Positions 11,094 to 20,681 of a stretch of DNA of 64,000 bases are shown one piece after another; position 1 is the stretch's first letter, and every line of letters starts with the position of its first letter. This DNA is from Candidatus Bathyarchaeota archaeon. GTDB lineage: Archaea; Thermoproteota; Bathyarchaeia; Bathyarchaeales; Bathycorpusculaceae. The translations under genes and the position numbers were made by a program. The notes beneath the pieces were generated by a model. It was not told where the DNA came from. It saw only the letters and a list, made by a program, of their open reading frames with translations, and did not search any database. The stretch lies in the NCBI GenBank assembly GCA_026014725.1, contig JAOZHV010000059.1, forward strand, positions 124,001-188,000, read 5' to 3'.

Positions 11094-13496
11094 TTATTTC
11101 CTTCTGGTTAAAATCAGGTTGTCTTTATCGAAGGCGAACTCGCCATACCTTTGCGTGTAATAGAGCCTCAGGTATTCTCCAGCGAATTGAGGCTGAAACG
11201 GCAGATCCCTTGGTGTTAACTTCTCTTTCTCTTTAAGTTGCTCCTCTATGGCTGCTTCCGCCAATGGATAATTGAGCAATAATTCTTTGCGTTCGCTGTA
11301 AACCGCCAACGTCTGCACAGCCTCATCCATGTAAGAGAGGTAAGTCGGCAGGTTCTCCATTATCTGGTTGATTTTGAATTTAGACGGATTGGAAAGCGTT
11401 TCAGTTGCTACCTTGAGGCGCTCGCGCAAGGTTCCATTCTTTTCCCAAATGTAATCCTTAGTTGGCAGCAAGCGTTCAATGGTTTCTTCCTCGCTGATTA
11501 ATTCAGCATAAAGCATGGAAAGTACATCGTTTGACATAGCAAGAGAAGTTTGGACATCATCCTTAAATGCGAACAAATCCACCATGCTCAGTTCTTCCTT
11601 GGCGATTCTTTGCGCCGCTACACTCTTCATATCCTCAGCCTTCTTTGAATAAGCAAGCACTTTAGGGGTGTTATCACCAAAAACCCATGGCAAAACATCA
11701 GCTTGCCCACTCAAATAAGCCAGCGGCGACAATGACTTATGCAGATAACGCATAGACGCTCGGATTTCAGAGCCATACTGCCGCTTCCAATTATTGAGCG
11801 CATTATAGAGAGCTTCTATAGCAATCCAAGGTGCTTCATTAGTCTGCAACTTCTGAGAAGCAAACTCAACTACTCGGCATTTCTCTGGAAGCGACGGATC
11901 ATACAATGGCTTAATTATGCCATAAAGTGGGTCTGCAACCACAATAACCTCTTGAGTAAGAGCACGCCCAGCCTCTAAAACTGCCTTGATAGCCACAACT
12001 CTCTCAGCCACAGAAAGCTCTTTGTGATACTCAGCGTTTAATGTGGTTTTGACATCCAAGCCAGCTTCCTTGAGTTTTCCAACCCAATTTGAGAATTCAC
12101 AGTTGACAAAGACTTGGTACTCGGCCAATGTGGCGTTAAGCTCAGCCTCTGCAAATTCGAGGTCAGCGTTCAATTTGCCTAACGCATCAAAAGTGGGGTC
12201 CAGTTCTGACTGGTCGTAATTGTCGGTTTCTATTTTTTTGAACAATTCATCAAATGAATCCCCAATCACCAAAGCCTTGCCTTCCGAGGAAGCCATACTT
12301 ACGGGGATATTCTCTTTGACGTTTCTTATTTGCTCGTTAAAGAGTCCTAGCCGTTCCTTGAGCGCTTGAGCTCTTTCCCTAACCTGAGTTATCGTCACTG
12401 TCTGCTTAGGCGTGACATCCATGAACACCACAGGCAAAGTAAACAATAACGTTGCTAAACTGCCAAACACAATCGTGCCAGCGCTGATGTCCGCCGTGTA
12501 AGCCAGCGGTCTCTCAAGAGTATCCAGCAAGATGAAGAACATGACTGCCGCAAACGTAGCAGTTAAACAGGGAAACAGTTTATCAGCAAGGCTTCCACTG
12601 CCGCCGCTGACCAAAAGGCGCGTAAAGAAAACTAATGCGAAAGCAAGCCCGGCCACCATAATTACAAACATAATGATGCCAGGAAGTGAATCAAGATATT
12701 GCGATAGCGCATCCTTAATGGTTCTCCCCACCCAATTAGGCTCCCAAGTAGTCTGCCCAGCAATATCATAAATAATCTTGGACGTATCGTACAAGCGAAA
12801 CTGGCTCATCGCTGACGTGAGGTCTTTTCCGATTAAATTCAGTGGAACCATAAGTGGCGGAGCAGACCCAGGTTCAAGCCACCATTCTACCCGTTTAATC
12901 GGCAGGACAACGTAAGTGAAATACTGCATTATTTGCAATGGTATCGAAATTAAAGCATAATAAATGACGGATAGGACGCCGTTCTTCTTGAAAAACACGA
13001 TAGAGGCTAAAAGCAACGGCACAGCCAAAAAATAGGTTGGTGCAAAGAATAGTACTGTCACCGCCAATATGCCGAAGTCAAAGGCAAGAGCACTTTTATA
13101 ACTATTAAAAATCAGGGGTAAACCAATAAACATCGCCATCCAAATAATTATGAAGGTTATGCGGATAAGGGTGTCTCCCAAGAAGGAAATGAAGTATAGT
13201 TTTGCCAAATTATTTAGTAACCCTAAGCCGATGATGGCGCCAGCGATTGGCATTCCATACAAGGGTTTTATGAACGTGACAAACGCTATTAATATCGCGA
13301 TTAAAATCGGCAATGGTTGAGGAAACAGCGGCAAAAACGTTGTGCCCAGCGCAACCGCAACCAAGGTAACAATTAACGTGACTATTTTGAGAAAGGGAGT
13401 CTCAAGAATACGCTCGCGCTCTGTTTTTTTCTTCCTCTGTTCCTTTCGTGTTTTATACCACCCGTTTAAGCGAGAAACCTTCGGAGTCTTCGTCAA
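11094..13496 (-). CDS. Large polytopic membrane protein with helical cytoplasmic domain, unknown family
   Basis: The 800-residue product begins with a very basic segment (KTRKEQRKKKTERER) and then has about nine or ten hydrophobic helices in the first 360 residues, with a loop of about 70 residues near 190-265 (EPGSAPPLMVPLNLIGKDL). From about residue 370 onward it is soluble, rich in Glu, Lys, Leu and Ala, and predicted helical or coiled-coil by eye (for example RAQALKERLGLFNEQIRNVKENI). I do not recognise the family. It starts 61 bp from, and divergent to, a degenerate tubulin-like protein and lies beside a tubulin-superfamily GTPase, so it could be a membrane anchor for that system. TTG start. 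Confidence 0.75.
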   Translation of the reverse strand: MTKTPKVSRLNGWYKTRKEQRKKKTERERILETPFLKIVTLIVTLVAVALGTTFLPLFPQPLPILIAILIAFVTFIKPLYGMPIAGAIIGLGLLNNLAKLYFISFLGDTLIRITFIIIWMAMFIGLPLIFNSYKSALAFDFGILAVTVLFFAPTYFLAVPLLLASIVFFKKNGVLSVIYYALISIPLQIMQYFTYVVLPIKRVEWWLEPGSAPPLMVPLNLIGKDLTSAMSQFRLYDTSKIIYDIAGQTTWEPNWVGRTIKDALSQYLDSLPGIIMFVIMVAGLAFALVFFTRLLVSGGSGSLADKLFPCLTATFAAVMFFILLDTLERPLAYTADISAGTIVFGSLATLLFTLPVVFMDVTPKQTVTITQVRERAQALKERLGLFNEQIRNVKENIPVSMASSEGKALVIGDSFDELFKKIETDNYDQSELDPTFDALGKLNADLEFAEAELNATLAEYQVFVNCEFSNWVGKLKEAGLDVKTTLNAEYHKELSVAERVVAIKAVLEAGRALTQEVIVVADPLYGIIKPLYDPSLPEKCRVVEFASQKLQTNEAPWIAIEALYNALNNWKRQYGSEIRASMRYLHKSLSPLAYLSGQADVLPWVFGDNTPKVLAYSKKAEDMKSVAAQRIAKEELSMVDLFAFKDDVQTSLAMSNDVLSMLYAELISEEETIERLLPTKDYIWEKNGTLRERLKVATETLSNPSKFKINQIMENLPTYLSYMDEAVQTLAVYSERKELLLNYPLAEAAIEEQLKEKEKLTPRDLPFQPQFAGEYLRLYYTQRYGEFAFDKDNLILTRRK

Positions 13497-13557
13497 GCAA
13501 TCTACCTAAAACCTTATTTTGACTGAATTACTCTTAAAGCTTATGTAGGTACCTCTG

Positions 13558-14919
13558 ATGACGACTAGCACAGGCTCTTTTAACATACTAGCAAGCATTG
13601 AAAAGCACGTTCAAGCCCTAAAACCGTTACTACCCAAACAAGCCATTGTATGCATCGGCGAATACCCCATTAAAATTCTTCTAAGGGAGCCGGGCATAAC
13701 CAAAACAGACTGGATAATGCCGATTTTGATTGAAAAATCAAGCGATGAAATCTATGAATGGCTTCCAAAGGGCTTTAACCCCCACTTCATCTTAGACTTC
13801 GAAGATGCCAAAATCAAAATGCACTTCTGGTACAATGTCTTGCCGTACATTTCCAAGGATGAGTCTGTCCCTGCAAGTTTAAAGAAAAAATCTCTTGAAA
13901 GACTCCACGGCGCCCTAATTTGTGCGTCACTATGGGACGGAGTTGGCAGTGCTTCTCTACCAACATTGATATCTAAATTTAAAGCATTAAATATTGAGTC
14001 GTTATCTGTAGCCTTTTTGCCCTCGAAGTTGCAGTCTGCAGACGCCCACTTTAATTGTTATGCTTCTCTGCAGATGTGCTTGCGCACTGATGGGGCAGTG
14101 GTTTTGCTTTTGGATAGAGACCACCTTGAAAGCTATTCTGGTGTAAATCGACAGGGAGAGTCAATTAAGGGCAATGTGGTCGCCAATCATTTGGTTAACC
14201 TGCTTTTAGCTAAAGATATGCTTGTTGAAGAACTTTCAGAGTTATCTCGAACTTTCAACAGCAAGCTGTTCACTGCGCTTTTTGTTACGGGTGCAAGTTA
14301 CAAGATTTACGGTTCTTTAGATAACATGCTAAAAACAGCACTGTTAAAGCCTCTATTAACGTTTGACTTGTCAAGCACTGCCGTGCTCTATGTTCTCTTG
14401 CGTATGCCCCTGAGCCTCAAAGATAAGCTTCCGAGAGCAAAAATTGAGTTAGCCATAGCTAGCTGGTTTGAGGACAAAGCAAACCTCAAGTCAATGTATA
14501 TTACTGAACCTGTGTACACCGAAGACATGAGTGACCGAGTAGACATAGCACTTCTTGTTGGCGGTTTTGACACCACTGAAATATTTAACAAATTAGACAA
14601 AAAAGTAATGTCACTCAAGAATCAGGCAGTCGAGAAGGGTTTGATAACTGAAGATTGGCAAGTTATAACTAAAGAAAAGCCAGAGGTACCTACAAACGCA
14701 GTAGAGTCTCCTGCACCCCTTGAGTCTTTACCACTTATTGAAGAGCCAACAGTTGAGCGGGAACCCTTAGTTGCCAAAGAGAAAAGTGAAAGCACTCTTG
14801 AGAGCATCGCTGGAATCCAAAATATCGAGGAACAAAACTCCACAGTTGCTGAGAAAACAAGGGGTAAAAAGCCAAAAAGAGCACGTAAAACAAAAAGGCA
14901 AAAACAAGAAGTTAGTTAA
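13558..14919 (+). CDS. Divergent tubulin/FtsZ-like protein lacking the GTP-binding glycine loop
   Basis: Residues about 27-365 follow the order of a tubulin-fold core: a beta-strand IVCIGEYP, a helix leading to ICASLWDGVGSASLPTLIS (122-138) where FtsZ has GGGTGSG, then LNIESLSVAFLPSKLQSADAHFNCYASLQ (a T5/NAxR-like segment), VVLLLDRDHLES and a long H7-like helix, then a second alpha/beta part ending DIALLVGGFDTTEIF. The tubulin signature is reduced to DGVGSAS, so GTP binding is doubtful. The C-terminus (370-453) is disordered, first acidic Pro/Glu-rich and then strongly basic (KKPKRARKTKRQKQ). The fold assignment is inferred from pattern, not from a search. It probably pairs with the 884-residue GTPase convergent to it. 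Confidence 0.55.
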   Translation: MTTSTGSFNILASIEKHVQALKPLLPKQAIVCIGEYPIKILLREPGITKTDWIMPILIEKSSDEIYEWLPKGFNPHFILDFEDAKIKMHFWYNVLPYISKDESVPASLKKKSLERLHGALICASLWDGVGSASLPTLISKFKALNIESLSVAFLPSKLQSADAHFNCYASLQMCLRTDGAVVLLLDRDHLESYSGVNRQGESIKGNVVANHLVNLLLAKDMLVEELSELSRTFNSKLFTALFVTGASYKIYGSLDNMLKTALLKPLLTFDLSSTAVLYVLLRMPLSLKDKLPRAKIELAIASWFEDKANLKSMYITEPVYTEDMSDRVDIALLVGGFDTTEIFNKLDKKVMSLKNQAVEKGLITEDWQVITKEKPEVPTNAVESPAPLESLPLIEEPTVEREPLVAKEKSESTLESIAGIQNIEEQNSTVAEKTRGKKPKRARKTKRQKQEVS

Positions 14920-14961
14920 AAAAATAAACAAGCATGAGTAGCAAAAACTGCTACCCTACGC

Positions 14962-17616
14962 TTACTTGCTTTTCGCGTTGATATTGTTGGGACCGTGGTT
15001 GTTTATGTCTCTGATGACTTGTGTAGCGTGCAGTCCATGTTCAAGCAGGTATGAACGCGAGAGGTACCTTTCGAAATCGTTTGATTTACTGTAGAGTAAC
15101 TGCATTTCATCGTATGCTTCCATGTCTTCAGGTTTTCCTCTTCCACCGACTACCAGTATTTTGGTTTCCCATGCATCGCGTGATTCAATAACTCGCACTG
15201 TTATGGTTCTAGAAACTTCGCTGGTTACATATCCTGCTAGTGCAGTGTAGACTTCTTGGGACATATCCTCAGTCCACATGTTGGGCGGTGTAGAGACTGT
15301 TACCCAGATGTAGTCTGTCTTGTATGTGGGTTTGAAGCCCATGATGCTTGGTGTTTTGAAAGCTCTTACAACGCTTTTCATATAGTCTTTAAAGTGGTCC
15401 ATGTCAAGGATTTGTTTGAATATGATATCTCGCGTTAGCGTGTCTTCTTGTTCCGTCAGTATTTTGAAGATTATTTTGAGTTGTTCGCCCTCTGTGAGGT
15501 CTGCACATTTTTCAAAGTAGCGTTTTGGCGCTGCAATAGCGGCAATTTTTTCTTTGTATTCTTTTTGCAATTCAACGATTTTGTTTAATCGTTTTCGGTA
15601 TTCAGAGACTAATTCAAACCGTTTTCCTAATTTCTCGTAGAGTTTGATTGTGCTGTCAATTTTCTCGAGGTTTTCAATGGCAAAGGCTTCTTCTTGCTCT
15701 ATGCGCTTGAGGTCACGCTCCAACTGTAGAAGTTGTTCTCGGGCATAGCGTTTACTGCTGAGGAACTTTCTTACTTGAGCTTCCATTTTTGATTTGTCGA
15801 ATTCTTTGCGTTTCTTTGTCTCTTGGACTCGCAGGACTTCGTTGTCAAAATTGCCTCTCTTCTGCATTCTATTTGCCAAAATTCCGTTGATGTAAGCCAA
15901 GTGTTCATCAATCATTCTGGATTCGTCTGATGGCGTTCGAAGCATGAGCTGGATAACCAGGTAGATTGTTGCTAGTTCTGTTTGGATGTCTTTTAAATCC
16001 TCTAATTCTGCTTTGCATTCTGGAAGAACTTCATAGTATCGTATTAGCGCCTCAGTGAGGTATCTGGTTTCATCGTAGAATTTGAGGATTTTTAGTGATC
16101 TCTCAGCTAGCTCTGCGATGTTAACTAAGTCCTCTAAAACTTTCTTTTGTCTCAGAGTGAAAATTTGTGAGCTTGGAATCAACTGGTTTAACCGCTCGAT
16201 GATTGTTGCTTTTTTGTTAGAGAAGTCTAAATGCGTCTTTGTCAGGTTCACAAGCAATGCTTCTAGGTTGTCTAATTTTCGTGAGCCCTCTTTACGCAAT
16301 GTCAAGTTGATTATGGCTTCTTCGATTGGTCCAACTTTTCCCATTAATTTTATGGTTGAGAGAAACTGCATGATTTCGTTTAACCAGTTTTTCACTTGGA
16401 TTTCTATTCCTTTAACATGTAAGGCTATGTCATCTTCAAGCCGCGGGTTGCTATTTATGACATTTTTTAGTTTCTCATCAAATTGTTCTTCATTGAAAGT
16501 ACCCGTCTTGATAAGGTAATTTTTAAAGAGGTCGCGAGTGACATCACTGTCTACTTTTATGACATTGTTGATTTCATCAAGAATGCACAGTTTCTCTCTT
16601 CTTGACTCCTGCATAAGCTGCATGCCTTCGAAGTTCAGTTTGAAGGCTTGAAGGTAATCTTCCACTGGATATGTTACCTTCATCATGCCTAAAGTGTGCG
16701 CTGAATTGTTTGTTAGCCCTACTTCGGTGCCTATGCCGCCTAGGAGGTCTGCTAAGTCAAAGTCCATTAATAGGTATAGTAGGTCTACGACCATTTCGTC
16801 CATTTCTCTTCGGGCGCTAATGATGTTGCCGACCTTTGAGAAAGCAGGAAGCAAGGGCAGATAGATCAGGGCGTTGAGGGGATTTCGGTAGTAATCACCA
16901 TATTCATTGCACACATATTCGTTGTAGTCTTTATTTAGTAAAAGTGAAAGCTCATTCATGGCTACGAATGCAGAGCAACCTTTTGCTGGTGGGTCATCTC
17001 CGCCACAGGGCGTGATGACAAATGCTATGATTGGTATGCCTGAACCTAGCACTTTTCGGAGGTGTCTTGCAAAGTCAAAGAATACTCCGCTTCCAGTGCC
17101 ACCGCCCAAGCCATAGACTAAAACTACGGTTGGCGTAATTATGGAGGAAAGGGCTTGCTCTTTAAAGGAGTTAATGCAACTTCGAATTATACCTAGTTGA
17201 TAATAGTTTAAAGCATAGATTGCTTTTGCTAGAGCGCGTCTTCTGCCTGCGCCGCCAGCCATCGGTGGAATAGCCATTGTTGATTCTAGCCATGGGTGGA
17301 AGTTAACTTTAGCTCCTTCTCCTACAAGGTATTCGCCGTATTTCTGGTTGATGAAATCAAACATTGCCTCAGCAGTGGGGAACTTTACTGATTGAGCAAT
17401 GAGGCGCATTCTTTCGCGCGGTATACCTGCTTTAACCATTGATTTTAAAATTTGTTCATGGGTTTCTTGTAGAGCGCGGATTTCAGGGTCAGCGATGTCG
17501 ATGGCTAAAAGAGAGAGCCTTGTTATGTCATTCTGCAATAGCTCTTTCGTTTTTCTGTTAGCCAAAAAAGCTTCAACAATGTTTGTACCGGCTGAACCGA
17601 GCCCTATCAATTGCAC
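14962..17616 (-). CDS. Tubulin/FtsZ-superfamily GTPase with long helical insertion (884 aa)
   Basis: The N-terminus IGLGSAGTNIVEAF (4-17) is a T1-type loop, PPMAGGAGRRRALAK (117-131) resembles T3, and YGLGGGTGSGVFFDF (168-182) is the tubulin/FtsZ signature. A T7-like catalytic segment DFDLAD (285-290) keeps the acidic residues of NxDxxD with the first Asn replaced by Asp. After about residue 320 comes some 380 residues of helical, partly coiled-coil sequence, then a C-terminal domain (about 720-850, YIWVTVSTPPNMWTEDMSQE). The size and insertion differ from FtsZ, CetZ and tubulin; the nearest described group I can name is FtsZl1/Tubulin_2. GTG start. It lies 27 bp downstream of the exported protein gene and is probably in one operon with it. 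Confidence 0.85.
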   Translation of the reverse strand: MQLIGLGSAGTNIVEAFLANRKTKELLQNDITRLSLLAIDIADPEIRALQETHEQILKSMVKAGIPRERMRLIAQSVKFPTAEAMFDFINQKYGEYLVGEGAKVNFHPWLESTMAIPPMAGGAGRRRALAKAIYALNYYQLGIIRSCINSFKEQALSSIITPTVVLVYGLGGGTGSGVFFDFARHLRKVLGSGIPIIAFVITPCGGDDPPAKGCSAFVAMNELSLLLNKDYNEYVCNEYGDYYRNPLNALIYLPLLPAFSKVGNIISARREMDEMVVDLLYLLMDFDLADLLGGIGTEVGLTNNSAHTLGMMKVTYPVEDYLQAFKLNFEGMQLMQESRREKLCILDEINNVIKVDSDVTRDLFKNYLIKTGTFNEEQFDEKLKNVINSNPRLEDDIALHVKGIEIQVKNWLNEIMQFLSTIKLMGKVGPIEEAIINLTLRKEGSRKLDNLEALLVNLTKTHLDFSNKKATIIERLNQLIPSSQIFTLRQKKVLEDLVNIAELAERSLKILKFYDETRYLTEALIRYYEVLPECKAELEDLKDIQTELATIYLVIQLMLRTPSDESRMIDEHLAYINGILANRMQKRGNFDNEVLRVQETKKRKEFDKSKMEAQVRKFLSSKRYAREQLLQLERDLKRIEQEEAFAIENLEKIDSTIKLYEKLGKRFELVSEYRKRLNKIVELQKEYKEKIAAIAAPKRYFEKCADLTEGEQLKIIFKILTEQEDTLTRDIIFKQILDMDHFKDYMKSVVRAFKTPSIMGFKPTYKTDYIWVTVSTPPNMWTEDMSQEVYTALAGYVTSEVSRTITVRVIESRDAWETKILVVGGRGKPEDMEAYDEMQLLYSKSNDFERYLSRSYLLEHGLHATQVIRDINNHGPNNINAKSK

Positions 17617-17643
17617 ACTGTTTTGGTAGATTCGCGTTGGTTA

Positions 17644-18585
17644 TCACATCCCGACTAATCTTTTGAGTCTGTCTTTTACTGATTCTAAGCTTGACGACAT
17701 TGTTCTGTCAATTTTAGATGCACGAAGCGTCAAGCCTTCTAAATCCTTAATTTGGTCTTCAACCACAAGCTGGAAGTAACTTACTTTTCCTCTAAGTCTG
17801 AGGAACAGAACCGCAAACAGAACGGCTACTATGGCTGTGATTGCGATGATTGGTAGAAACATCATTTGCATAACTGAACCCGCTGGAGGATTGGCAACAT
17901 CTATGCCATTTAAGAGGGCAATCGCATTTTCGACATCTCCACCATTAGCTACGTCTTGAGATATTTCGAGAACTTTTTCGAAGGCAGCAGTGAAGCCTGC
18001 ATCAACACCGCTGTCTTTTAGTGATTGAAGTTTTTTCTCTTTCGCTTCATAGAGTGTTAGGTAATTAGACATCTCGGCGGTAGTTGCTGTAATTGTAAGT
18101 TTGTCAATCTGCTTTCCTGAAGGCCCAGCTAACGAAACAGCATCGATTGATTTTGCGCTACTAGTGGTGGATGGAACCTTTCCGTTCAAGGTGATTTCAA
18201 ATTCGCCTGCAACCCAGTTAAAAGAAGTGGTTGCAGTATTAGGGCTAAAGGCAGCTCCTAAATCGTAAGTGTCGTCATAACTCCAATATGCGCCAGATGA
18301 GGGTTTTGCCAAATACGTCGTTAGTTTTAAGTTGCCTTCACCCGAGGCGATGACATTTACAGTGAACGTGATTTTAATGTCTATCCCAGGAACTATTGCG
18401 CCTAAACGGGTAGTTTCGTTTGTGGATGCGTCATACTCTAACAATACCTGATCTGTCTGAGCATTCACAACTTTGTAATCAGTTATCCATTCTGCATCTC
18501 CTGCAGCCTTTACTGGTGAAGCGGATATTACAATCATAATTGTTAAACTTAATAAAAGACCTAAAGTAAGGATTTTAGTTCTCGT
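17644..18585 (-). CDS. Exported single-pass protein with cytoplasmic helix, probable ACG start
   Basis: Upstream of the first ATG (18537) the frame stays open and encodes an ideal signal peptide (RTKILTLGLLLSLTIMIVIS, then ASPVKA). The only plausible start placed correctly behind the strong GGGGAGGA site (18593-18600) is ACG at 18583-18585, seven bases from it; an in-frame stop lies further up. The mature part is a beta-rich extracytoplasmic domain, then a helical segment with a tetratrico-like EVLEISQDVANGGDVENAIALL stretch, one transmembrane helix (MMFLPIIAITAIVAVLFAVLFL) and a cytoplasmic amphipathic tail (KIDRTMSSSLESVKDRLKRL). Its position just upstream of the tubulin-like GTPase suggests it links the filament system to the cell surface. 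Confidence 0.7.
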   Translation of the reverse strand, partial: TRTKILTLGLLLSLTIMIVISASPVKAAGDAEWITDYKVVNAQTDQVLLEYDASTNETTRLGAIVPGIDIKITFTVNVIASGEGNLKLTTYLAKPSSGAYWSYDDTYDLGAAFSPNTATTSFNWVAGEFEITLNGKVPSTTSSAKSIDAVSLAGPSGKQIDKLTITATTAEMSNYLTLYEAKEKKLQSLKDSGVDAGFTAAFEKVLEISQDVANGGDVENAIALLNGIDVANPPAGSVMQMMFLPIIAITAIVAVLFAVLFLRLRGKVSYFQLVVEDQIKDLEGLTLRASKIDRTMSSSLESVKDRLKRLVGM

Positions 18586-18810
18586 TTTTAGTCCTCCCCT
18601 GAATTTTTCTTATGAAACCATACATATAACACTTGTGCTTATCCGCTTTAACAACCAAATTTTAAGACAAAAATGCCCTCTCACCCAATTGATTACCTGA
18701 AAACAACGAAGAAAACCTTGCGACGCTTGCCTGCTTTTCCTTTTTGTTAACTTGACTTTGCAAACCAACCGTTAGATTTGGCAATTCCGTTAATTGGTTT
18801 TTTCAAAAAC

Positions 18811-18863: not shown

Positions 18864-20681
18864 ATGAATACAATCGACCTTGCAAAAACACGTCAGGCCC
18901 TAAACCTCAAAAAACTCGCCAAGCCAATCGCCATTTGCATCAGCGCACTATTCATCATAAGCATGATTTCTATGCTCTCAGCAACTTCAGTGCAAGCAGC
19001 CACAACCACATCCCCACTGCATACGTCGGGCCACTTAATCCTCGACGCTAACAATAACCCTGTTTACCTGCGAGGCATCGGCAGAGCAGGAGACATCGAT
19101 TCCCTAAGTGGCATCTGGAGCGGCCCAGGCGATTCCGTTTATAACTATGGAAACAAATGGCAAACTGACTTCACTGTCCTAGCGCAAAAAATGGATGCAA
19201 CATTTGCGTGCTACCGAGACGTTTGGAAAGTTAACATGATTCGCGTCTTTGTACCTGTTGACTGGTGGTGGGACGACAAAATAAACCCTGCACAAGCATA
19301 CGGTGAAGGACCAAATCAGGTAATGAGTTACAAAAACTACATAGAACTCATCGCGCAAGAAGCAGACAAATACGGCATATACGTTGACTTCTGCCCCTAT
19401 TCAGTGCTTAACTACTACAAAAACCAAGGCAACTGGGATGGAATCCCAGGCAGCTTGGGCACAGCAAGTTTAGCCTACATGCAGAAAATCAACCAGAATG
19501 AAATAACTGCATGGCGAATGTGGTGGACAAGCGTAGTTGAAAGGCTAGGAAAATATCCTAACGTAATCTTTGAAATGTGGAATGAACCCGACAATGACAA
19601 ACAAGCGTACTACAACTATATGATAAACGCATACCAAGCAATCCGCGCAACAGGCAACACCAACCTGATTTTCATGCAATACTACCTCGGCTTAGTTCCA
19701 GGATACAATGAACTCACGTGGGTACCAGAATTCCACAACCAACTCAAAAACGCCCTCGGCAAAGAACCATTAAATGTTGCATACACCACACACCCCTACA
19801 GACGGGCACCATACCCCAACCTCGTATGGTCAACAACCTGCCAAGGCGTTAAACAACAACTCAGCGCAGCCACAATGATTCCAGCAACACGCTCAAACGG
19901 CATAGATGTTCCGTTGGTTTTCAACGAGATGGGAGTTATGCTTGAACCATCCATGTACAGCAACGACTACTTCCCAGACGCACAAAAACCCGAGAGCACT
20001 CTTACCGTGGAACAGAAGATGCAAAATGAATTAGCATTCTGGGATGCAATACTTCGCAACGCTTACGAAATGGACGTGGGCGTTTGCTCCTACTACTGGA
20101 TGCAGACAGGCGTCTGGTGGGGTTCAGAAGCACTAATATCCCAAGCTAATTGGCCAGCGAATGCAGCGTCACCAACACCCTCACAAACGGGACAAATATT
20201 CATCAACAATTACGTGGCTAAAACACCAGTAAACCCGACACCAACCACTACACCATCACCAACCCCAAACCCGACACCAGTACCGATACCGACACCAGTG
20301 CAAACTCCAACGCCGACAGCAACGCCCACCCCAGAACCCACACCAACACCTACTCCACAACCAACACCAACCCCTTCATCAACTCCTATTCCGACACCAA
20401 CACCAACGCCCACCTCGACAGCGCCAACTCAGTCGCCAGCGGAAACCCCAACGCCTCAACCAACACAACAAGCAAACGTGACACCAACATCTACAGAAAA
20501 ACCAACAGCACAGTCACAAGAATCCAGTCCAAAGCCAACACAGACGCCGACAGAACCCCCAAACTCATCTGCAGAGCCAATACCAACATTCCGTATACAA
20601 CCAACATATCGTAACCACTGGAGCGCATGGTACCTGTTTAAATGGGGTCGCTTTAACGCGTGGTTCTTTTACTTCCGCTAA
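18864..20681 (+). CDS. Secreted GH5-like endoglucanase/mannanase with Pro-Thr linker
   Basis: A signal peptide (hydrophobic core 22-40, cleavage near SVQAA) precedes a TIM-barrel domain of about 390 residues. YLRGIGR near 68-74 matches the GH5 start (LRGVN), Glu241 in MWNEPDND is the acid/base position, His310 in TTHPYR and the nucleophile Glu355 in VFNEMGV follow in order. A Pro/Thr-rich linker of about 130 residues then leads to a short aromatic and basic C-terminus (YRNHWSAWYLFKWGRF) that may anchor the enzyme to the surface. GH5 enzymes cut beta-1,4-linked glucans or mannans; the exact substrate cannot be read. It supports use of outside plant-type polysaccharide. Confidence 0.88.
   Translation: MNTIDLAKTRQALNLKKLAKPIAICISALFIISMISMLSATSVQAATTTSPLHTSGHLILDANNNPVYLRGIGRAGDIDSLSGIWSGPGDSVYNYGNKWQTDFTVLAQKMDATFACYRDVWKVNMIRVFVPVDWWWDDKINPAQAYGEGPNQVMSYKNYIELIAQEADKYGIYVDFCPYSVLNYYKNQGNWDGIPGSLGTASLAYMQKINQNEITAWRMWWTSVVERLGKYPNVIFEMWNEPDNDKQAYYNYMINAYQAIRATGNTNLIFMQYYLGLVPGYNELTWVPEFHNQLKNALGKEPLNVAYTTHPYRRAPYPNLVWSTTCQGVKQQLSAATMIPATRSNGIDVPLVFNEMGVMLEPSMYSNDYFPDAQKPESTLTVEQKMQNELAFWDAILRNAYEMDVGVCSYYWMQTGVWWGSEALISQANWPANAASPTPSQTGQIFINNYVAKTPVNPTPTTTPSPTPNPTPVPIPTPVQTPTPTATPTPEPTPTPTPQPTPTPSSTPIPTPTPTPTSTAPTQSPAETPTPQPTQQANVTPTSTEKPTAQSQESSPKPTQTPTEPPNSSAEPIPTFRIQPTYRNHWSAWYLFKWGRFNAWFFYFR
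20226..20580 (+). repeat. Low-complexity Pro-Thr coding repeat
   Basis: An imperfect tandem array of ACACCAACACC-like units codes for TPTPTP-type linker between the GH5 domain and the C-terminal tail. Such repeats change length easily by slippage. The antisense strand gives an artificial Gly/Val-rich open frame. Confidence 0.85.

Follow-up and report, generated by a model that had tools for sequence, protein, structure and literature searches.

A conserved four-gene module of Bathyarchaeia combining an FtsZl1/Tubulin_2 GTPase, a predicted tubulin-like partner, and two membrane proteins

Characterized tubulin-superfamily proteins form filaments. For the FtsZl1 proteins, the 2010 study did not find the T6-H7 and later elements, and it offered three readings: that these parts had diverged, that filaments form by a novel mechanism, or that no filaments are formed (PMC2875224). 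A reviewer of that paper suggested a role in transport or signaling for FtsZl1 proteins (PMC2875224). Tubulin_2 proteins have been set aside as divergent (PMC9871819), and Bathyarchaeia are reported to have FtsZ-like sequences that are not canonical and whose role was left undetermined (PMC9723716). Here we analyzed a 64,000-nucleotide stretch (the window) of Bathyarchaeia contig 59, within a 2.56-Mb genome, in which a first-pass annotation had pointed to four unusual genes standing together. All four reading frames were confirmed; they encode a membrane protein (TM800), a tubulin-like protein (pseudo-tubulin 453), a GTPase (FtsZL884), and an exported single-pass protein (SP297), and the block recurs in many genomes. 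The set is kept across distantly related archaea and is therefore probably an unstudied membrane-attached cytoskeleton rather than a cell-division machine. The annotation had called the whole system undescribed; the GTPase proved to belong to a known family, and it is the surrounding module that appears undescribed in the literature searched. No description of the four-gene module was found in the open literature, a scope outside which fall most subscription papers and the associated-family tables (A1-A2, B1-B9) of the 2010 study. The genes and their main features are as follows.

11094-13496, minus strand: TM800, with ~10 predicted transmembrane helices in residues 35-365 and a putative cytoplasmic helical half in residues 366-800 (11097-12401); without a Pfam or PDB family
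13558-14919, plus strand: pseudo-tubulin, 453 residues, predicted tubulin fold without the GTP-binding signature; convergent to the FtsZL gene
14962-17637, minus strand: FtsZL884, FtsZl1/Tubulin_2 GTPase by Pfam cut-off; 891 residues from ACG at 17637, 884 residues from GTG at 17616
15328-16671, minus strand: helical insertion of FtsZL884, approximately residues 323-770, inside the C-terminal domain (AlphaFold2 secondary structure)
16747-16767, minus strand: T7 loop MDFDLAD of FtsZL884, residues 291-297, standing opposite LINLDYAD of the canonical FtsZ from the same genome in the hhalign alignment
17086-17112, minus strand: T4 tubulin signature GLGGGTGSG of FtsZL884, residues 176-184, kept in all 26 aligned homologues, with T changed to S in L109
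17644-18585, minus strand: SP297, with signal peptide, variable exported domain, one transmembrane helix, and a conserved tail on the cytoplasmic side; the start is probably the ACG at 18585
17647-17796, minus strand: SP297 cytoplasmic tail LRGKVSYFQLVVEDQIKDLEGLTLRASKIDRTMSSSLESVKDRLKRLVGM, a likely docking segment from the conservation of tail versus exported domain

The two tubulin-superfamily proteins

FtsZL884 matched the Pfam family Tubulin_2 (PF13809) at 48.9-49 bits against a cut-off of 27 and scored 32 bits for Pfam Tubulin (cut-off 33); Tubulin_2 was likewise matched by 26 of 26 aligned FtsZL homologues. On the basis of Pfam's own cut-off, the protein is therefore a Tubulin_2/FtsZl1 protein, a member of the family of Makarova and Koonin (2010, PMC2875224). 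Its assignment as a canonical FtsZ, which would be a short (~350 residues), two-domain protein with FtsZ_C, was rejected because it has 891 residues and matches Tubulin_2, not FtsZ; the canonical FtsZ of the same genome is a separate gene. The T1, T4, and T7 motifs were all intact by alignment and hhalign. In the profile alignment (hhalign, E 6.6e-7), LMDFDLADL of FtsZL pairs with LINLDYADL of the genome's own canonical FtsZ, and F293, D294, and D297 of the T7 loop are invariant among the aligned homologues; this loop should complete the GTPase site of a neighboring subunit. The AlphaFold2 model (mean predicted local distance difference test score, pLDDT, of 82) predicts a complete tubulin fold with an insertion, in the order S6, H7, H8, S7, helical insertion (~323-770), and then S8-H10-S9-S10, the element names being our own assignment. 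A Foldseek search with the model returned CetZ2 (top), TubZ, gamma-tubulin, and FtsZ, with a best E value of 3e-5, and a PDB sequence search with FtsZL884 by itself gave a chance coiled-coil match only. The earlier description of an 884-residue tubulin/FtsZ-type GTPase with a 380-residue helical insertion was right as to superfamily, fold, and the presence of the insertion, whereas both lengths needed revision: the protein more likely has 891 residues and the insertion ~445 (about 323-770 of 891). Helices are predicted over residues 325-770, followed by an alpha/beta C-terminal part; compact bacterial Tubulin_2 proteins, which have no such insertion, align to FtsZL residues 4-292 and 764-880. 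An open reading frame at 16082-16519 (plus strand) was rejected as a gene, being an antisense shadow of FtsZL.

The second protein had been proposed to be a degenerate tubulin-like protein, and absence of a tubulin fold from a structure prediction for 13558-14919 had been named beforehand as a refuting result. The AlphaFold2 model (mean pLDDT 77, with ~90 or more over residues 120-370) together with Foldseek predicts a complete tubulin fold, with GTPase domain, core helix, and C-terminal domain. Foldseek matched the model to 1109 PDB chains at E ≤0.001, CetZ being the best (E 7.8e-16) and TubZ, FtsZ, BtubA, and OdinTubulin also appearing among the matches. When a profile of 27 homologues was compared with the PDB by sequence only, AtubB2 (2.2e-5) and CetZ (7.6e-5) were found, and Pfam Tubulin was matched weakly by 15 of the 27 family members (best 4.6e-5). 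The GGGTG(S/T)G signature is missing in every homologue that covers the region, where SLWDGVGSA or a similar string stands instead, so the protein is indeed degenerate in its GTP signature. An acidic residue is retained at the T7-like place (E225 in the window, E or D elsewhere) and may be equivalent to the catalytic acid. The profile match between pseudo-tubulin and its partner FtsZL is weak (hhalign probability of 7.5%), and the protein is therefore not a simple recent duplicate; FtsZL was rejected as its recent ancestor on the same ground and because CetZ and Asgard tubulin fit better. Pseudo-tubulin also evolves much faster than FtsZL (identity 0.54 versus 0.72-0.82). Its tail (14650-14919, plus strand, approximately residues 365-453) is Pro/Glu-rich and then Lys/Arg-rich and is found in some orthologues only; the L039 protein has a similar acidic stretch at its N-terminus instead of a tail.

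Membrane partners, conservation of the block, and start codons

SP297 has a signal peptide, an exported domain, one transmembrane helix, and a conserved cytoplasmic tail, in line with the exported single-pass protein with a cytoplasmic tail described at first. Mean identity across the own-family genomes is 0.74 for the tail versus 0.41 for the fast-evolving exported domain, and the tail is likely a docking segment. TM800 has ~10 hydrophobic segments. From hydropathy and the positive-inside rule, it is best read as a protein of 10 helices, N-in/C-in, with its helical half in the cytoplasm and a predicted exported loop at ~196-270; both ends are placed in the cytoplasm because the N-terminus and loops are basic and the helix number is even. 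A nine- to ten-helix membrane half with a helical cytoplasmic half had been anticipated for this 800-residue protein, and ten helices fit best. Searches of Pfam and the PDB with TM800 and SP297, alignments included, gave nothing beyond chance or coiled-coil level, and none of the four proteins was meaningfully matched in NCBIfam or PADLOC.

SP297, FtsZL884, pseudo-tubulin 453, and TM800 occur together in ~20 own-family genomes from 6 genera. Gene order in relatives had been suggested as a check, its loss in every relative being named as a refuting result; the order and orientations of the block are kept across the six genera and a second Bathyarchaeia family (f27), with different flanks. Since this arrangement recurs in many genomes at protein identities of 29-87%, the block is more than chance. 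In a GTDB family scan of 91 genomes, FtsZL was found in 26, TM800 in 27, and pseudo-tubulin in 26, these sets of genomes being almost identical; the exceptions to this all-or-none pattern are contig ends (G005, G015, and G034) and an 85-residue fragment edged by masked bases (G053). The co-occurrence of FtsZL and TM800 gave a Fisher p of 5.5e-19 with relatedness ignored, a value that overstates independence because the genomes are related. Five more distant Thermoproteota outside the class (G263, G291, G566, G567, and G528) keep the signal-peptide protein, FtsZL, and the transmembrane protein, with a pseudo-tubulin-like gene on either strand; a profile of these out-of-class pseudo-tubulin-like proteins matches the window's family (E 2.7e-14), some single assignments being weak (e.g., L149, E 0.007). 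The pseudo-tubulin gene lies on the opposite strand from FtsZL in most loci. The G528 FtsZL gene (L150:7514-10170) is split into two frames by a frameshift or an assembly error, its operon being otherwise intact.

The FtsZL N-terminus TRIYQNSVQLIGLGSAGTN is conserved from a probable start codon, which is ACG in 19 of 21 own-family loci and ATG and TTG in one each; 11 of the 21 contain no ATG, GTG, or TTG from the upstream stop to the T1 loop. On this pattern FtsZL884 most likely starts at the ACG at 17637 (17635-17637), 6 nt past the SP297 stop, and the 27-bp spacing given by the first-pass annotation was not borne out. The GTG at 17616 was rejected as the start because most orthologues have no start codon there. 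ACG accounts for only 9.7% of the threonine codons in these genes, so that the codon itself, beyond the residue, looks constrained at the FtsZL start. An ACG is the most likely start codon of SP297 in the window as well; it lies at 18585 (18583-18585) and lengthens the frame first read as 17644-18537. Its context fits this role: GGGGAGGA precedes it, relatives carry ATG or TTG at the same place, and it stands at the usual distance from a promoter-like element. The literature searched yielded no paper on archaeal ACG starts, and conservation of such a non-canonical start in an archaeal gene would be notable in itself.

18624-18638, minus strand: promoter-like element GCACAAGTGTTATAT / RCRCAARTGTTATAT of the SP297-FtsZL operon, upstream of SP297; made up of a TATA-like box preceded by an 8-mer and kept in most own-family loci

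The element matches at 14-15 of 15 positions, or nearly so, in 18 of 19 complete loci of own-family relatives; in L041 and L046, 12-13 positions match. The 2.56-Mb genome contains a single copy of its 13-base core, so no co-regulated genes were found and its use as a regulon marker was rejected.

Other genes were seen next to the module or in related contexts. Many loci (family f27 and some others) have a fifth gene of ~240-310 residues after the module, which is absent in the window; copies lie at L100:12569-13483, L102:1745-2671, L107:3185-4117, L041:13445-14383, L047:6640-7566, and L149:13547-14437. Its product has a beta-rich N-terminus and a helical C-terminus, and in one copy there is a weak match to a bacterial PH domain (bPH_3, E 0.06). 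Next to the module, at 18864-20681 (plus strand), lies a GH5 cellulase-like gene whose product has a Pro/Thr-rich tail; the gene is also beside the module in several genus members, at just 32-62% identity, and missing in others. In other Thermoproteota (L152, L153, and L155), a different Tubulin_2 protein with N-terminal transmembrane helices (1016-1051 residues, with a 371-residue frame in L155) adjoins proteins of ~700-770 residues, mostly with C-terminal transmembrane helices, another undescribed context.

Possible role of the module

We slightly favor, with a little better than even confidence, a model in which the module, as an accessory, makes an FtsZl1 filament that is tethered to the membrane, regulated by pseudo-tubulin, and used to remodel the envelope or cell shape. 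FtsZL884 would bind GTP and polymerize head to tail as tubulins usually do, with each subunit's T7 completing the GTPase site of its neighbor, and its helical insertion would project from the filament. The SP297 tail and the cytoplasmic helical half of TM800 would tether filaments to the membrane, and the exported parts of both proteins would connect to the envelope. Because pseudo-tubulin would be unable to hold GTP in the usual way, it would act as a cap, nucleator, or co-subunit regulating the FtsZL filament. The output would probably be envelope or cell-shape remodeling, not cytokinesis. The analysis shows the predicted folds, GTPase motifs intact in one tubulin and lost in the other, the conserved association of the genes, their near all-or-none occurrence, and the conservation of the SP297 tail; the polymerization, contacts, capping, and output of the module we infer. 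Several points weigh against the model: filament tests of FtsZl1 proteins were reported in none of the papers found, conserved neighbor genes need not have touching products, the alignments behind motif conservation are shallow (26-27 rows), and the FtsZL model has low-confidence stretches at 101-146 and in loops near 264 and 304. A bolder proposal, which we offer as speculation and hold to be doubtful, sees in the module a cytoskeleton of two tubulins that differs from FtsZ, CetZ, and eukaryotic-type tubulins and may be ancestral to part of Thermoproteota. In it, an obligate GTP-dead tubulin would cap the active FtsZl1 GTPase, or co-assemble with it, via the retained acidic T7-like residue, a dedicated membrane-protein pair would serve as anchor, and the active/inactive split would have arisen separately from alpha/beta tubulin.

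Other arrangements would draw on the same proteins. Within the filament model, pseudo-tubulin could be a stoichiometric co-subunit in an alpha/beta-like heterodimer rather than a cap or regulator, as its complete predicted fold would allow and with E225 at a T7-like place where it could serve to complete a neighboring FtsZL's GTPase site; however, it changes faster than FtsZL, unlike lattice-forming tubulins, and its gene is on the opposite strand in most loci, so that equal dosage is not built in, and we consider this version distinctly unlikely. A reading without filaments takes FtsZL884 as a GTP switch or scaffold, TM800 as transporter- or channel-like, and SP297 as an exported sensor or substrate-binding partner, with a closed tubulin-like heteromer gating TM800. 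The role proposed by the reviewer of the 2010 paper (PMC2875224) is of this kind, and the transmembrane half of TM800 is better conserved within the family of genomes than the cytoplasmic half (0.56 versus 0.45), with many invariant Pro/Gly; yet TM800 has no transporter family match, and the intact T7 loop of FtsZL884 is sensible mainly at a polymer interface. We think this reading unlikely.

The first-pass annotation had also allowed a role in division, and a tubulin-superfamily GTPase with membrane tethers could form an alternative division apparatus that replaces or helps FtsZ or ESCRT-III, canonical FtsZ being absent from many module-bearing genomes of the genus. Among the 32 genus members, however, ESCRT-III homologues are present in all 32, canonical FtsZ in 6, and the module in 18, and each of the four presence/absence combinations of canonical FtsZ with the module is found. 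A module missing from 14 of 32 genomes that all have ESCRT-III is therefore accessory rather than part of core division, and we regard a division apparatus as improbable. The patchy, near all-or-none distribution within one genus would also suit a block that is carried as a unit, whether as a mobile element, a TubZ-like module for plasmid partition, or one directed against viruses, but PADLOC gave no match, no relative was found in viral contigs or phages, the plasmid matches are distant bacterial Tubulin_2 proteins only, the neighbors are ordinary chromosomal genes, and membrane anchors are ill-suited to DNA segregation; this origin seems very improbable.

Relation to known systems

The 2010 study left the question of whether FtsZl1 proteins have the T6-H7-T7 parts needed for filaments (PMC2875224). 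The FtsZL884 branch has these parts by sequence and model, so that the filament question becomes directly testable, with named residues (D294 and D297) and defined partners. It is unusual for an active tubulin-superfamily GTPase to be accompanied by a conserved pseudo-tubulin, and the pair would represent a second route to a regulated tubulin filament. The presence or absence of the module between close relatives provides natural comparisons of cell shape, in Bathyarchaeia, hosts whose cell biology is almost unknown.

The module resembles the described FtsZl1/Tubulin_2 systems (PMC2875224) in its Tubulin_2 domain, long helical region, membrane-associated operon partners, and coexistence with canonical FtsZ in the same genome. 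It differs in having the insertion inside the C-terminal tubulin domain and an identifiable T7; the C-terminal domain of FtsZl1 was described as mostly helical, from which the alpha/beta C-terminal part of FtsZL884 differs partly. The 2010 operons have vWA, GTPase, OmpA, and kinase partners, whereas here the partners are pseudo-tubulin, the tailed exported protein, and the 10-helix protein. The stated lack of vWA and OmpA-type partners held up: neither these nor a Ser/Thr kinase or divergent P-loop GTPase were seen among the neighbors scanned by Pfam, which were not every neighbor of every locus. Two Tubulin_2 genes also stand side by side on Rhodococcus and Agrobacterium plasmids (L159:11857-15437 and L160:7982-11641), the Rhodococcus protein having ~30% identity to FtsZL over residues 1-280. 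Unlike the module's pair, these are compact (507-568 residues), have no insertion, and both retain most of the signature; a gene of ~100 residues lies between them, an aliphatic amidase is near, and vWA and CbbQ/NorQ adjoin in Agrobacterium.

In the FtsZ tether systems (ZipA, EzrA, and SepF), the filament-forming GTPase is accompanied by a membrane-associated protein whose cytoplasmic segment is conserved. SP297 is comparable by functional analogy only, with no family similarity found, and it differs by its signal peptide and large exported domain. CetZ, an archaeal shape tubulin dispensable for division, is the nearest solved fold to pseudo-tubulin and the top match for FtsZL; unlike pseudo-tubulin it binds GTP, it lacks such an operon, and sequence identity is ~15%. 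Asgard AtubA/B (AtubB2 leading the PDB sequence matches of the pseudo-tubulin profile), OdinTubulin, bacterial BtubA/B, and alpha/beta tubulin are alike as tubulin-superfamily partners working in pairs. The analogy to alpha/beta tubulin drawn at the outset stands insofar as an active/degenerate pair is present, but it is loose, since pseudo-tubulin looks closer to CetZ and tubulin than to FtsZL. In the AtubA/B, BtubA/B, and alpha/beta pairs both members bind nucleotide, whereas the module's pseudo-tubulin has lost the signature and its two tubulin-superfamily proteins are not close paralogues.

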